The notes beneath the pieces were generated by a model that ran no database searches, had not been told where the DNA came from, and saw nothing but the letters and a program-made list of their open reading frames with translations. From Dermatophagoides farinae (taxonomy: Eukaryota > Arthropoda > Arachnida > Sarcoptiformes > Pyroglyphidae): a DNA stretch of 64,000 nucleotides. The number at the start of each line of letters is the position of its first letter. Positions within the stretch are counted from its first letter, which is position 1. Position numbers and translations under genes: made by a program. Location of the stretch: positions 2,111,001 through 2,175,000 of the forward strand of contig NC_134677.1 in the NCBI RefSeq assembly GCF_024713945.1, read 5' to 3'. Positions 11,106-32,480 of this stretch are shown here, piece after piece.

Positions 11106-12036
11106 TTATGATGAAACAGATGTAATATTAAATGTTTTGTTATTTGAAACATTTGTTGAACCACTACCGGTTGATGTATTAATAATAGTTGATGTGTTTG
11201 ATGGTGATGAGGTAATGTTATTTTTCTTATTATTATTATTAACTTCAACAATTGAATCAGCTGATGGCGTTGTTGTTGTAGTCGAGATCTTGAAACGTTT
11301 GGTTGTTCCGGTACTAGTACCAACTCTACCGGAATATGTGTTTGGAATAGTTGATACAATATGGATGTTTGGCGTTGTTGTGCCGCCACTTAATGAAGAT
11401 TGTTGGGCCAATGTGGCAGCAGTAGCCGGTTGTACTACGACAGTTCGATATGCACCATTTGTAGCCGCCGTTGTCATTGTATTTGGAGCCAATGATAATG
11501 CAGCACCACCACCAGTAGTTTTGGCATTTAGCACCGTATAAGTGGCATTTCCATTGGCAGCAATCGCACCACTGGTTCCATTAGTGTTGGCCAACGATGT
11601 TGTTGAAATGATGATTGGGGTCGCTGTAGCTGTATTGCTGTTATTATTGTTCGTTGATAAATGAATTACATGAGGACCATTTGGAGTTGATTTAATCTGA
11701 GGATTCTGTACAATGATCGTGCTTGAACCATTTTTTACTACTGAACGTACAGTTGGCCCCGAAGTGTTTCCATTAATCAATAATTGAGCCTGCTGTGTGG
11801 TCAATGGTTGTACCGATGGATTTATCTGTCTGCCGGTTGGCTGTCGTTGAACAATAGTTGAAGGATTCATGGATACCACAGTTGGTGTAACTGATGCCGA
11901 TGATTGGGATAATAAGGGCGAATCGGTCAGTCTTCCATTGCCGCCATTATCGGTAATCACGCCATTCATAGTCAAATTCAAATCACTATTATTAGTGACA
12001 TTGCTTTCATTACTATTTTCCGATAGGTCACCATAG
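11106..12036 (-). CDS. Thr/Asn/Ser-rich 3' exon, probably Max long C-terminus
   Basis: A 931-nt open stretch starts after an acceptor (CATTTAG|C, AG at 12037-12038) in phase 2 and ends in TAA at 11106. It encodes about 310 residues, beginning YGDLSENSNES and ending FNITSVSS. Composition is dominated by Thr, Asn, Ser, Val and Ala, with few charges apart from a short KRFK patch, as in intrinsically disordered transactivation-type regions. It must be joined to an upstream minus-strand exon, and the Max zipper exon is the nearest one. A phase-2 donor at the end of that exon (TCATT|GTTAAC, exon end 12363) gives a continuous 475-residue Max. Other phase-2 donors exist in exons 4 and 5, so the exact junction is uncertain. 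Long Max C-termini like this are not usual, so it could alternatively be an isoform-specific exon or part of a separate gene. Confidence 0.6.
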
Positions 12037-12101
12037 CTAAATGTGGGAAATGATAAAAAAAAATTTATATTAAAATCAGGTACCATACAAGTAATCAATG
12101 C

Positions 12102-12361
12102 TTAACCCTGCGTTAACGAGTTGAGGGTTTGGAAATGACCAAAACAGAATCGAAACAAATCTAAATCCAACTAAACATAAGAGATCTAAGAGAGATTTGA
12201 TCTCTTGACTGCTTACAAGCTTAAAAAATACTCCAACTAAATTCTGATGAATTGATTTTTATTTTATTTTCAATTTAATGAAAATTGAGTTTTGAAAACA
12301 ACTGACACTTTACTAATGGGGTAATAAGAAAAAAAACTACACTTTATTAACGCAGGGTTAA
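12102..12361. mobile_element. piggyBac-type MITE, 252 bp, TTAA duplication
   Basis: TTAA at 12102-12105 and 12358-12361 flank a 252-bp segment whose ends are exact inverted repeats, CCCTGCGTTAA (12106-12116) and TTAACGCAGGG (12347-12357). A TTAA target duplication with ends starting CCC is the signature of piggyBac-superfamily elements. No transposase frame is present, so it is a non-autonomous MITE. The inside is AT-rich and contains a small inverted repeat (AAGAGATC ... GATCTCTT, near 12178-12205). It lies at the 3' edge of Max exon 5, with consequences described under Max. Confidence 0.8.
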
Positions 12362-15300
12362 CAATGATTGAACATCAATTAAATACAATGAATTTGAATT
12401 ATTATTTGGTGACAATAACGTTTGTTTAGGAGTTGACGATGCTGACGATGGTGTTGGTGAAAGTGTTAGTCCTCTTTTTTCGAATTTAAGAACTGAAAAC
12501 AGAAAAAATATATATAAATTAACAGAAAAACAAAAACACATGATTACAAACTTTGTTCTTCTAGCATTTTATTCTGCTTTTTAATCTCATCAATATCCGT
12601 TGCAACGTTTGTAGTCTTTTTTCGCATAAATTGTATATATTCAGCTGCTTTTTTCAGAATCTGTGCACGTGAAGCCTAATAATGGTTAAAATGGAGAAAA
12701 AAATATTCATTGATGAAAAAATTTATTACATCAAATGTATTTTTTTTTGAAACCTTTTCACCATGTAAAGATGGTACCGAATCCCGTAGGCTACTGAATG
12801 AATCTTTAATATGATCACGACGTTTTCTTTCTAAAGCATTATGGTGTGCACGTCTATCAGCCTAATGAATGAATGAATGAATAAAAAAGGTGAAAAATTC
12901 CGAAAAAACTAAAAAAAAAAATCCAACAAAAACCGTACACTTACAGCGCTTGGAATGTTACGATCATTACGACCAGAATCACTGCCACTACCGCTGGCCA
13001 TATTGGCACCACCACCTTGCATATATTGAGATTCATCTTCCTAAAAAATCACAAACAAACATACGATTATTCAATTATATTATTATCATAAAAGTAATAA
13101 TTTAATTGTATAAATTCTTGGAAAAAATTGTAACAAGTTGAATTAAGAAAATTTCAAAATTTCCCATCATTATCATCATCAACATGTGAATAATCAATCA
13201 ATTTAATAATAGGGTAGTAGTCACCCATGTTATCACACGTGTGTAGGCGACATAATTATTGGCTAAATTATTATAAAAAAAAAAAAAAACTAAAATCAAC
13301 AATATTTCACATACATTGAGAGATTGAAACAAAAAAGAAAAAGAAAAATGTGATTAACTCTTCATTTCCAAATTGAATACTATAACAAGGGGTCAAAACC
13401 AGTTCGGATCGGATTTTAAAACAATTATTATTATTATTTTAACCTGATCATTATTATAATGATTTTCAATTTGATTTTTTTTCACGCCTAAAAAATTTAA
13501 TATTTCACACGAATATATGTATACAATATATAACAAACAACCATAACAAAGATCAACAGCAACAGTATTTTGACCTTTCTCTCTCTCTCTCTCTCTCACT
13601 ATCTATCACATTTCATATATATCCTGTTTTTCGTTATTATCGTCACCACCAACCATTCTTTACAATATATTTTTCTTTTCCTTCACGTTTTTTCCAATGG
13701 TTATAATATATATTTGCAATGATTTTTTCCCTTTATAACAAAAAAAAATTGATGAGATGATGATAGCTCTCTTTCTCTCTCTCTCTCTTGTTTCCCTCTT
13801 TCTCTCTCTCGCTTGCTTTATGGATCAAATAATAGTTGATGATAGCGATGACATGAAAGTCATAAATGGGGATAAGATCAACAATAATTCTTCATTTTTT
13901 GCCTTTTTACATTATCATATGGAAAAAATATATACAATCCATCTTGTTATACAAAAACATTATGTGGACATTACCACCGGGTTTTGGTGATGGTCATCAT
14001 CATCATCATCATCATATAACCATTAGTCGTTCTCATGATAGTTAATTCTTTCACACACACATATATACTACAGGAATTTAAACTGAATTTTATGGTCTTC
14101 TCATTAATATAATCAGGCTTAAAGGTAGAAAAAAATGATTTTAAATAAAAAAAAATAGTTTACATAGGAACAAAGACACACAGATAAACAACAACAACAA
14201 CATAAACCAACCGGAACAATCACAATGTGTGAATAAAACAAACAAACAAAAAACAACAACAACAACTACTACTGAATCATATTTCTCTTTTCAATGATAA
14301 ATGTTTTTTCTTCAGTTGATTTCATTTCACATTTCTTTTATTATGGCATTATTTCTGTTGTTGTTGTTGTTGTTGTTGTTTTTTGAGAGTTGATTGTTTG
14401 AAATTTTGTTGTTGTTGTTTTTTTTTTTGAATAACAAATCTCATTTCCTATGCTCTTTTTTTCATATGGTTATTATTTTCTCTCTATGCAAACTCACAAA
14501 CACATAATAATGACGCCAGGCGTGATCATCATGTGTCCATTTTTTTTTTGAAAAATGTCCATCCTTTCCAAGTGTGTTTGTGTGTATGTATGTATGTCTT
14601 TTTCCCACTTTATTAGCCTCTTTTTTGGTCTATGTTTCAATGTTCGAAAAAATACGTTCAATGACCTCCACATAAACACACACACACACACATTTATACA
14701 ACATTCAGGCCATCATCAATTGGCAAAAAATTGGTTATATGGTTTTGTTAATGGTTCGGTTGTGTGTGTGTATGCTTCATTCATTCAATGATGATGATCA
14801 TCATCATCATCGACGACCATAGCTGATGATATTATCATCATCATCAACAAGATATTTATACATAAATAAAAATGGCGCCTTAGAGTTTGTAGCTGCAGCT
14901 ATTGTATTGTATTGTGTGTGTGTGTGTGTGTGTGTGACCATATCATCATACAGATCATCATCATCATCATCGATGTTTTTTATCGACTAAATAATAATGA
15001 AAAAAAAACGAAATGATAATGGTGGTCAAAGAAAAAAAAAGAGATAAATAACAATCAATGAAGATGATGATGAAGATCAAATGGTTATTTTATTACAATT
15101 GTAAAAAACGTAATGGACATATATATATATATTGAAGGATATTTTTTCTATTCGTCGAATGATATGACAAGGACAACCGATTATATGTATCCATGTGTGT
15201 TTAGTATCATTTTCGTATACGACATGCATCTGTGTGTGTGTGTGTGTTATTTTTTCATTAACTCGTTCACATGTCTTAATGAATAAATTTCAACATTTGA

Positions 15301-28200: not shown

Positions 28201-29643
28201 TCGGTGGTGATAATTGAAAGCTAAATCTTTGGATATTAATGTTGTTGGATGGTTATCATTATTATCATCATTACCATCATTCAACGGAACCATAGCAGCA
28301 GCAGCAGCAGCAACAGCAGTACTAGTAGTAATAGTAGCGCCTGTGTGTTTATTTCTGTCGGGTAATTTTTTTTTCTTCAAACGACAATTCGGCATTTTCA
28401 TTGTCGGGTAAATGTATTTATCAATGTGTTTGTGTGTGTGTGTGTAATGGATGTATGAATGCAGACGTAACTGTATTGTCAATGATGTAGGAATTTTTTT
28501 TTCATTTTATTTTCTTTCTCTCGAACTTTGTCTATAAGAATAAAATATCTTATCAAAAAAATATATAAAAAATAATGTCGACAACAACAACAAAAAGAAC
28601 GAGAATCTAATCAACATTCATAACAATGAATTCATTTCTGATTTGTTCATTTAATCGTATCTGATGATTATTCACTCTAGATCACATTGCCCATTTGAAT
28701 TGTGTGTGTGTACATGTGTTTTTTGTGTGATTAAATTCATTTATATATATACCGATTAATTCAAATCATTAAATATATTTAATTTCAACAAACAAACAAA
28801 CAAACAAACACACCTACTACACATCGTTAATTCATTCAACCAAAATTTTTTTTTTTTGAAAAATATTCGTTGATTCTTCCATTTCATCCATCTATCCATC
28901 CATTTAGCCATCCATCAACAATAATAACAACAAATTGTTTAACAACACAGAAAAAAAAATAAATTGTATGTACATTTTGTTGTTGTTCGCCTCCCCTCCC
29001 CACCACAAAAAACAAAATTCGTTCCAATTTTTACTTAATATATTCCGGATAAATTTGAAAAATTGTTATTTTCGTCGTCGTTTTTTTCCGGTTGAATCCA
29101 AGGCAACGACACAACAAGGTGCCACACACACGCACACACACACATTGAAGAATATTCTCTCGATCACATTTTTCATGATCCATCTTTCTTTCACTCAATG
29201 TGTATATATGTATGTCAATTATTAATGAAATGCAAATGTGTATAATACGATAAAAAATGTTGATTTAATGAATTTTTATTTCACGGCTTAGCTGTTGCCT
29301 GATAAAAAAAGGTTAAATGTCATTTTTTTTGTTTATTAGCTAAATTCAATTTTCTCATCCAGAAATACTCTCAGTGTTCATTAGTTTAGCAGTGCAGAAT
29401 TTTTTTTTACAAAAATCAAAAATTTAACACAATCAAACTTGATCAAGAATCAAGGAATTTCGATTCAGAAACGGATTTTTTTTTTCTATTATTATTATGT
29501 TTATTAATTCTGTCAACCAATCCTGTTTGTTTGTTTATTCATTATATTAATGTGAAAATGAAACAGGAAAAAAAAATCTCTATACACAACACTGTCATTG
29601 AGATATTGAGAATTTTTGTTTTTTTTCATTCATACTATATATA
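25220..29643. other. intergenic, one weak candidate exon
   Basis: LAMP 3' UTR to 25.7 kb, then simple-sequence DNA up to the foldback element. The only frame with some non-repetitive character is on the minus strand at 28135-28401. Confidence 0.6.
28135..28401 (-). CDS. weak candidate small coding exon
   Basis: An 88-residue frame begins MKMPNCRLKKKKLPDRNKHT, passes through a run of seven Ala and an Asn/Asp stretch, and then a His-rich part (about residues 65-81). It ends KAKKK just before a stop. No family is recognised, and much of it is trinucleotide repeat in coding phase, so it may be chance. A donor (TTTTA|GTAACA) near its end could make it a first exon. Low confidence. Confidence 0.22.
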   Translation of the reverse strand: MKMPNCRLKKKKLPDRNKHTGATITTSTAVAAAAAAMVPLNDGNDDNNDNHPTTLISKDLAFNYHHRHKHDHHHHHLQAHFSNKAKKK

Positions 29644-30403
29644 CAGGGCGTCCGTAAAGTAACTGACTGATTTTAATTGAATCCTATTTTTTATGTATGA
29701 GATTTAGATGCATGAAGTGCTATGCAAAATAAAGGAAATTTATTAGGATTTTGTATTCCATCATTGAAATTTTTTAAAAATCACCATATCGCCCGAAAAA
29801 CCGATAATTACCGATCGATGTCCAAACGCGATTTCACCACTGCCAGCCAGTGGCTGTATGTGACTGTGTGTGGCCGTACATGCCAGTACTGGCACATTAA
29901 CAAATGACGGTAAAATTTTATGGAATTTTCATTCAAAATTATGCATTCTCCTCAATCAGTTCAACATTTAGGATCAAATGTTAAACTGATTGAAGATGAT
30001 TCAGATCAATTCAAATTATTGATATTGATGGTACATGAATTGTCCACTGGTTTGAGTCAACGCATAAGGACCAACAATATTTTATTGATAAAGTTTTTTA
30101 TGAAGACAATGAAAATGAATAATCATATTGATGGCATTCTCTTCAATCAGTTTAACATTTTGGATGAAAGCCGATGAAATTTCGATTATTTACAAATCAA
30201 TAAATTTACGAACTGCGGTGGCATAAGTATCTTTCGCCATTTTTACCATATGAGATCAAACTTAAAAAACACTTTCACAGTGTTCATTAATTTTAAATTT
30301 CTCAAATTAACCAATTAACCAAATGGTGCACGAACAATTTCAGTAGATTCGATGATTCGGGTGATTGACATCCATTCCTTACTCCAAGAAATGACTGTAA
30401 CTG

Positions 30404-31096
30404 CAACTGCGAAATGCCGATTTGACTGACGTTAACCAGTGTTTTAGATTTTTATCATCATATCTGACAATGTGAGACAACAAAATACCGCACAACTTGA
30501 GAGATCTTTTTTGTATTGATTAATACGAGTATTTCCATGAGTTTGGCCCAAATTGACAAGAAATTCGATCCATTTTTCTGAATATTCAACGTTTCTTGAA
30601 AAATTTGATTCCCTACAATTCAATTACGATTAAAGTCTGAACTTCAACCAAATTTTATTTTAACGCAATTTGTTTCGAATCATGGAAAGTTTGGCGAATA
30701 TCTATCCCGTTTTGGCCTGAATAATTCTGATTGTTCATTTTGCTCCTTATCGATGCAGTCCTCGTTGCATTTGTTGCTCGAGTGCCCTGCTTTCCATTTG
30801 GAGAGATTTCGTTTTATGATTGATGCCAATATTGATTCTACTAATGTGAGACAACAAGTAATCGATTTTTTTGACTCACGATTAATTGTGATCTACCGTA
30901 AGTCAGGGGTAGCCTGGACATCTTTCTTTGGGCAGAAACCAATCGATTTACAAACATTATGGTCATCATGTCCCAGAAATATCGTAAGTCGAGGGTTACT
31001 TGCATTCGAAAAAAGTTGAAAAATCGCAAAGCTCCAACTGCGAAATGACTGACGTTATTCAATGTTTTAGATTTTTATCTGACAATGTAAGAAAAC
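30404..31096. repeat. degenerate direct repeat around LINE fragment
   Basis: About 80 bases from 30404 and 62 bases from 31035 share CAACTGCGAAATG, GACTGACGTTA, GTTTTAGATTTTTATC and TCTGACAATGT in the same order, with small indels. They bracket the LINE-derived frame, so the segment may have been duplicated or inserted as a unit. Confidence 0.55.
30609..31019 (+). pseudogene. non-LTR retrotransposon ORF2 3' fragment
   Basis: 136 codons, open from after a stop at 30606 to the stop that follows FEKS. The segment FVSNHGKFGEYLSRFGL followed by CSFC, eight residues, H, four residues and C (HLLLECPAF) is the Cys/His motif found downstream of the reverse transcriptase in R1/jockey/I-type LINE proteins. 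The reverse transcriptase itself, the endonuclease and the 5' part are missing, so it is a truncated, dead copy carried in the spacer of the foldback element. Confidence 0.75.
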
Positions 31097-32480
31097 ACGT
31101 AATTTTCGTGGTTTGACTTCACACTAGTCGTATGATGAACATGATTATCACCATCAACGTTGACATTGGAAGAACGATTCTCAAGATTAACAAAAGACAA
31201 AAAAATCCATAAAAACATACCGAACTTTTTGCTCCCTTGCACAAGTCGTGGACAATTCATGTACCATCAATATCAATAATTTGAATTGATCTGAATCATT
31301 TTCAATCAGTTTAACATTTGATCCTAAATGTTGAACTGATTGAGGAGAATGCATAATTTTGAATGAAAATTCCATAAAATTTTACCGTCATTTGTTAATG
31401 TGCCAGTACTGGCATGTACGGCCACACACAGTCACATACAGCCACTGGCTGGCAGTGGTGAAACCGCGTTTGGACATCGATCGGTAATTATCGGTTTTTC
31501 GGGCGATATGGTGATTTTTAAAAAATTTCAATGATGGAATACAAAATCCTAATAAATTTCCTTTATTTTGCATAGCACTTCATGCATCTAAATTTCATAC
31601 ATAAAAAATAGGATTCAATTAAAATCAGTCAGTTACTTTACGGACGCCCTGTATATATTTACGATTGACATATATTGATTGACTTTGGTTTCTGGTTTCT
31701 GTTCACGATTGCTTTTAATGTTTATTATTGTTTGTCAATAACCAACAATGTATTAACAACAACAACAACAACAACAACATTCTTTGCTCGCATATTGAAT
31801 TTATAATCAGTTTTTTTTTTGGATACATCACACCACAATGACAGTGTAGTAAACAATTTAGTTTTCATCTAAATACGCACCATATAATGATGATGATTAA
31901 GATGATTACTTTTTTTCGTTCAAAATTTTCTTTGTTTTCTACAATAGATGTTCATTTGTGATTAAAATATAATTTTTTTTTCTTCTATTTTGGCTTAATA
32001 TACATCATCATGTTGAACGAATGATAATGATGATGATGATGACAACGTAAACAACATTCAACAACAACAATAACTACAGAATTAATGACATTCAACTATG
32101 CTACTACATGATGATGATGAAGCCAAAAAGCTTATCTGAACAACGACGACAACAACAACAACGAAAAGGAATTTTTTTTGTTGTTGTTGCCACAGAATTT
32201 GTTTTTGTTTAATATTTATTCTTTCGTTTTATACATTCATTCATTCATGTTTGATTTTCGTAGTTTTTTCATTCTACTTATTGTATGTTTGTATTGTTTT
32301 TTTTTTTTTTGGTTAGGATTTATACCACACCCCACAGTCAATGAGATGATGAAAATTTTACTAATACAAACGGAATTCGATGTGAAAAAAATTGGGGAAA
32401 AAATAGGAATCAACATTTATTCTATAATTCATCTAGTCTAGAAAAAAATTCTGTTGATTTTGTTTCCGTTTTTTTTCCAG

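Follow-up and report, generated by a model that had tools for sequence, protein, structure and literature searches.

Results

The Max gene and a TTAA-bounded element

The window, which is the whole 64-kb stretch of Dermatophagoides farinae DNA analyzed here, carries a gene for Max on its minus strand. The joined exons (query residues 33 to 117) aligned to PDB 1r05 with an E value of 2.6e-34, identifying the product as having the basic helix-loop-helix (bHLH)-leucine zipper of Max, and they matched the HLH domain PF00010 with an E value of 7.4e-18. An exon encoding EDESQYMQ...NIPSA (12945-13042, minus strand) ends at a recovered junction, GCT|GTAAGT, and is included in a match to PDB 1hlo that extends over residues 25 to 103 of the query. 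It is followed on the same strand by the exon for the basic region and helix 1 (...HGEK; 12754-12861), supported by the 1r05 alignment and PF00010, and by the exon for helix 2 and the leucine zipper (ASRAQIL...KMLEEQ; 12552-12675), supported by the 1r05 alignment. The end of the zipper (ILKFEKRG...; 12364-12492, minus strand) is joined to it by the 1r05 alignment across the 12493-12551 junction, and this exon, whose 3′ end is putative, is open up to the element described below. The three Max introns placed by homology have the donors GCT|GTAAGT, AAG|GTTTCA, and AAA|GTTTGT. Downstream, an open frame of 310 codons (11106-12036, minus strand) is the probable C-terminal exon; it had no Pfam match up to an E value of 1, and its codon use is coding-like (score +71, with the frame itself excluded from training). 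Counted from EDESQ on, with the first exon outside the model, the short form would have 157 residues and the long form 462.

Between the zipper exon and this frame lies a piggyBac-like element of 252 bp (12106-12357) that carries no transposase frame and is single copy as far as searched. By direct reading it is bounded by TTAA on the left (12102-12105) and on the right (12358-12361), a putative target-site duplication. Its terminal inverted repeats (TIRs) are CCCTGCGTTAA on the plus strand at 12106-12116 and the same CCCTGCGTTAA on the minus strand at 12347-12357, the latter containing an in-frame stop, TAA, at 12349-12347. Written out, 12102-12361 consists of TTAA, CCCTGCGTTAA, 230 bp, TTAACGCAGGG, and TTAA. 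The arms are perfect over 11 bp beyond TTAA, and with TTAA counted all 15 bases of the left end are complementary to 12347-12361. The earlier note had described a TTAA-bounded, piggyBac-type element in the Max gene, and its coordinates agree with ours.

The insertion-like structure at 12102-12361 is real. When the window was simulated 150 times with a second-order Markov model, a TTAA-bounded perfect 11-bp inverted repeat arose in 3 of the copies, and one with at least 5 G/C arose in none of them. The real window holds one further TTAA-bounded 11-bp pair, at 29981-30155, with 4 G/C and with its left end inside the arm of a larger inverted repeat. When the element and both TTAA copies were folded as minus-strand RNA, taken alone and without the rest of the intron, the fold was better than those of all 200 shuffles (z, −4.43) and the TIR arms were paired. 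A genome search with the joined flanks of the element, i.e., the empty site, matched the present locus only; because no empty allele was seen, we infer both the insertion and the status of TTAA as a duplication. The target reconstructed in this way, CAATCATTG-TTAA-GCATTGATT on the minus strand (window positions 12093-12105 plus 12358-12370), is a near-palindrome centred on TTAA. The window also contains, at 29637-31658, an inverted repeat with 411-bp arms that are 99% complementary and 1200 bp apart, and a diverged second copy lies on contig C7 near 3546765-3547942 (89% for one arm); this repeat is possibly a low-copy DNA transposon with long TIRs.

Superfamily and relatives in the genome

The combination of TTAA with CCCT...AGGG ends fits piggyBac and not Kolobok. 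In the accounts consulted, piggyBac ends are described as carrying the terminal motif CC[C/T]T (PMC2872659) or as beginning with CCC (PMC10813416), and CCCT stands at both ends of the present element, as it does in most of the coral CMITE families described in PMC2872659. The fifth base is G, and the resulting start, CCCTG, is absent from the well-kept five-base starts named in the PMC10813416 account (CACTA, CCCTC, CCCTT, and CCCAT). The 11-bp TIR is one base below the 12 to 19 bp given in PMC2872659 and within the 4 to 24 bp given for most elements in PMC10813416. Kolobok elements also duplicate TTAA but, as described in PMC9587614, have 5′-RR...YY-3′ ends, and the ends found here are CCC...GGG.

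The genome searched comprised 62.4 Mb in 22 contigs. A DNA search with the element returned one match, its own locus (such counts being lower bounds), and the 15-base element end was found at two places, both in the present element. TTAACCCTGCG occurred at three genomic places, against three for the reversed control; allowing up to two mismatches yielded 48 sites, compared with 122 in the control. No second inward pair starting with TTAA and lying within 10 kb was found among these 48 sites. Twenty of the 48, all of which were fetched, belong to a repeat reading GTAACCC(C/T)GCGTTAA, which we considered as a family of the present TIR at one or two mismatches and rejected: it is another repeat, since it has GTAA and a shared flank where the element has TTAA and a unique flank. 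Some sites of this repeat, GTAACCC(C/T)GCGTTAAGCG (L039 to L058), form inverted pairs about 4.6 to 9.5 kb apart, and its end presumably resembles that of a mariner/Tigger-type element. As these searches of the genome turned up no second copy, the element looks like an orphan and not like a member of a MITE family. The label MITE used in the earlier note, which implies a multicopy family, was thus not borne out, and the search for other copies with these ends that it had called for yielded none beyond the locus.

We also examined the surroundings of the piggyBac transposase genes. PF13843 had 14 matches in the genome, and two of them (L004, C2:4362659; L005, C5:3035617) are long stop-free transposase frames of 527 and 562 amino acids, and the stretches that contain them share 99.9% identity across 2,466 bp. 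In L005, TTAA on each side adjoins a perfect 14-bp end, CCCATTCACGACCA, whereas the 3′ part of L004 shows many gaps relative to L005 and has no CCCATTCACGACCA end there. These intact-looking frames suggest that the piggyBac superfamily has been active in this genome. Among the TTAACCC[T/A] sites near transposases are CCCATTCACGACCA, which forms a pair in one element, and CCCTTTGCACTCG, seen at one site; the CCCTGCG end was sought in ten 10-kb stretches covering all 14 matches, and none was seen. A transposase-bearing relative with matching ends was accordingly not found around these 14 matches; a missing parent does not exclude that the element is a relic. A 149-bp TTAA-bounded stretch elsewhere (L028 1616-1764; C1:1073615-1073763) has the ends CCAATTCACTACCA and CCCATTCACTACCG, which resemble the ends found on the intact piggyBac, and is a possible derived miniature element. 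As a separate observation, the genome contains seven matches resembling group 2 allergens; one of these, compared with solved structures, gave an E value of about 1e-30 for Der p 2/Der f 2, against 6.6e-9 for NPC2-type proteins, a result that points to an astigmatid mite as the most likely source.

Splice sites around the element

On the minus strand, the right TTAA lies within TCATT|GTTAAC, as direct reading confirmed, and the earlier note had placed the element exactly on the Max splice donor, GTTAAC (12357-12362). Its arithmetic holds: measured from 12362 through the last base of the acceptor AG at 12037, the intron spans 326 bp, and removing the element and one TTAA leaves 70 bp. Candidate donors were scored against 31 introns of the same genome placed by homology (22 from kinase genes, 6 from chaperonin genes, and the 3 from Max), with leave-one-out scores for the set ranging from 0.85 to 6.97. 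In 29 of these introns the length is 51 to 92 bp, the other two measuring 182 and 200 bp, and a 70-bp ancestral intron is of the usual size, as had been claimed.

GTTAAC scored −0.50, and GTTAAG, the donor inferred for the empty site, 0.10; both are below all 31 donors, the lowest of which scores 0.85. None of the 31 begins with GTTAA, and the sole GTTA donor (TCG|GTTAGT) has G at +5. Three other minus-strand sites in the same phase scored from 3.14 to 3.60. Upstream, GTATTT (12381-12386) reached 3.26, with 5 of 31 donors no higher, and would give an intron of 350 bp now and 94 bp without the element; GTTATT (12414-12419) reached 3.60 (6 of 31 no higher), with corresponding introns of 383 and 127 bp. 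Past the element, GTATGG (12083-12088) reached 3.14 (3 of 31 no higher) and, in the empty site, is in phase 2 with a 52-bp intron. All three are able to join the strong acceptor of the downstream coding exon, TTTCCCACATTTAG (12037-12050, minus strand; score 4.93, with 26 of 31 acceptors no higher). Both 12386 and 12362 follow a poor exon context, ATT. Poorer candidates were GTCACC (12413; −2.79), in the same phase, and GTTCAA (12373; −3.21), and donor-like sites within the element (e.g., 12216, with 2.98) were set aside because they lie beyond the in-frame stop. Length therefore favours 12362 or 12088 as the donor, and sequence favours 12419, 12386, or 12088. Since its score falls below every homology-placed donor and the others lie in the normal range, the GTTAAC at the element edge is probably not the working donor, and the claim that the element sits exactly on the splice donor is not upheld. 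If the element stays in the exon, its TAA (12349-12347) prevents 12088 from being used in frame in the present gene.

The reference introns were obtained as follows. For the kinases, 32 stretches were fetched from 134 PF00069 matches, picked for looking split or for holding stops. Five of ten gap stretches proved to be open frames without an intron (L067, L068, L069, L071, and L072); these kinase-domain genes have long in-frame inserts between conserved blocks, several of them rich in N, S, or T. Nine of the 22 other kinase stretches (L078, L079, L080, L085, and L090 to L094) gave no junction that was used, L092 having one weak candidate. The 22 kinase donors are the best-scoring ones consistent with kinase conservation; the first intron of L081, that of L083, and the second introns of L087 and L089 are less certain, and for L076 the third-ranked row was taken and the top-scoring row set aside. 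For the chaperonins, 4 stretches fetched from 26 PF00118 matches yielded the 6 introns, a further gap in L060 having none. A self-trained model that took a generic donor consensus as its starting point found all three Max introns and had scored GTATTT at −0.65 against −2.82 for GTTAAC; because it also contributed to the selection of part of the 31, the rankings do not stand entirely apart from it. Self-training without a prior gave an intron model that was too noisy and was dropped.

Reading through the site at 12362 adds L-T-L-R before TAA (12349-12347), the Thr-Leu-Arg and stop expected from the earlier note, and an AATAAA, a putative polyadenylation signal, overlaps the stop at 12343-12348 on the minus strand and is followed by a T-rich stretch. 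That strand of the window holds 196 AATAAA hexamers in 64 kb (3.06 per kb), and about 8% of 35-nt stretches contain one. Because it is so frequent, the hexamer carries little weight, and describing it as the element's own polyadenylation signal goes too far. A truncated, polyadenylated Max is no more than a possibility.

Discussion

We favour, with a probability of roughly 0.6, the reading in which a piggyBac-type passenger is spliced out from a better upstream donor of the same phase and the long Max is made. A nonautonomous element of 252 bp would have entered a TTAA lying either close to where a Max exon ends or immediately within the next intron, and the spliceosome would most likely join GTATTT at 12386 or GTTATT at 12419 to the acceptor at 12037. 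The element would then be removed with the intron, giving a long Max 8 or 19 residues shorter than the version in the earlier note. Judging from the fold of the element alone, the perfect TIR arms may pair in the pre-mRNA, looping the element out, reducing the effective intron to about 94 nt, and burying GTTAAC in the stem. The coding-like 310-codon frame fits continued use of the long form. Counting against the upstream donors, the ancestral intron they imply, 94 bp from 12386 or 127 bp from 12419, exceeds the usual 51 to 92 bp.

The length argument is what speaks for the account in the earlier note, in which the element landed exactly on the donor, changed GTTAAG to GTTAAC and weakened it, expanded a 70-bp intron to 326 bp, and caused part of the transcripts to read through to a short Max. 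The phase of 12362 agrees with that of the acceptor, and 70 bp is typical. Weak donors are sometimes used, and a low score does not exclude a site. However, both hexamers fall below the whole reference set, which contains no GTTAA start; in the kinase gene L073, a GTTAAC is found 9 nt upstream of the GTGAGA assigned as donor by score and kinase conservation; and the TIR stem, if it forms as in the fold of the element, would hide the site. We consider this account improbable. Somewhat less doubtful, though still unlikely, is a landing in coding sequence, with GTATGG at 12088 as the ancestral donor and the gene now relying on an upstream donor, so that the codons after that donor were lost. The score, phase, and 52-bp intron of 12088 in the empty site all suit it, but the frame concerned, LSIDY, scores +0.85 and is too short for a coding test, and comparison with the human Max tail is uninformative: for the four possible tails, 276 to 449 of 500 shuffles matched the human MAX C-terminus as highly. 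This reading overlaps with the favoured one in the present-day gene, and the weights given to the readings need not sum to 1.

That the chief product is a truncated Max, with LTLR preceding the stop in the element and polyadenylation directed by the overlapping AATAAA, is very unlikely. The frame is indeed open to the stop and the hexamer precedes a T-rich stretch, but AATAAA is common in the window, and the 310 downstream codons, where decay would be expected in the absence of use, are open and coding-like. Little room, slightly less again, is left for an ordinary intron with a chance inverted repeat and no insertion. It would account for the lack of an empty allele and of a family, but a G+C-rich repeat with both arms starting exactly at TTAA was never seen in the Markov windows, and the element folds better than all of its shuffles. 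The faintest chance goes to intron gain, in which the element hit a coding exon at GTTAAG and became a new intron at once, which would be an introner-like event in an animal, brought about by an element of the piggyBac type. The duplicated TTAA would provide the two borders, as GTTAA and TTAAG, and excision of GTTAAC...TTAAG leaves the reading frame intact (TCA TT|C ATT GAT TAC TT) as far as the former donor, GTATGG; the low odds reflect the TTAAG acceptor, which scores −2.48 and lies below all 31 acceptors.

Introners, transposons that give rise to introns and draw the splice sites from their duplication, are already known (PMC9860276), and as described there, duplication could in principle provide GT and AG as at the present element, which differs in having no family of copies and so poor an acceptor; it was not assigned to the introners. 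Coral CMITEs (PMC2872659) and human MER85 (PMC2268245), as these sources present them, resemble the present element in having TTAA on both sides, short TIRs, and no transposase. Their estimated copies are 18 to 737 for CMITE families in Acropora millepora (PMC2872659) and 613 for MER85 (PMC2268245), whereas no second copy was found here and the TIR sequence lies beside none of the transposase matches of its own genome. A host transcript ended by a piggyBac element is likewise already known from the primate exon trap CSB-PGBD3 (PMC2268245), where, as here, a piggyBac-type element lies in a host intron and an AATAAA could end the host transcript. According to that account, PGBD3 contributes its own 3′ splice site together with an entire transposase exon, and the fusion transcripts are conserved; the present element has no transposase frame. 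In the parts of the literature consulted on piggyBac MITEs at splice sites and on piggyBac in mites, nothing was found on this locus or on a comparable donor insertion.

Scoring against 31 introns of the same genome may serve as a method in such cases, the GT at the element edge having fallen well below three donors of the same phase. Max is the partner of Myc and a conserved regulator, and the locus would gain in importance if transcripts showed that the insertion had recast its donor or taken the place of its last exon; were that true, empty and filled states would offer a direct test of the effect of one insertion on isoforms. As matters stand, the element is most likely an ordinary insertion relic carried as a passenger, one more transposon relic in an intron.
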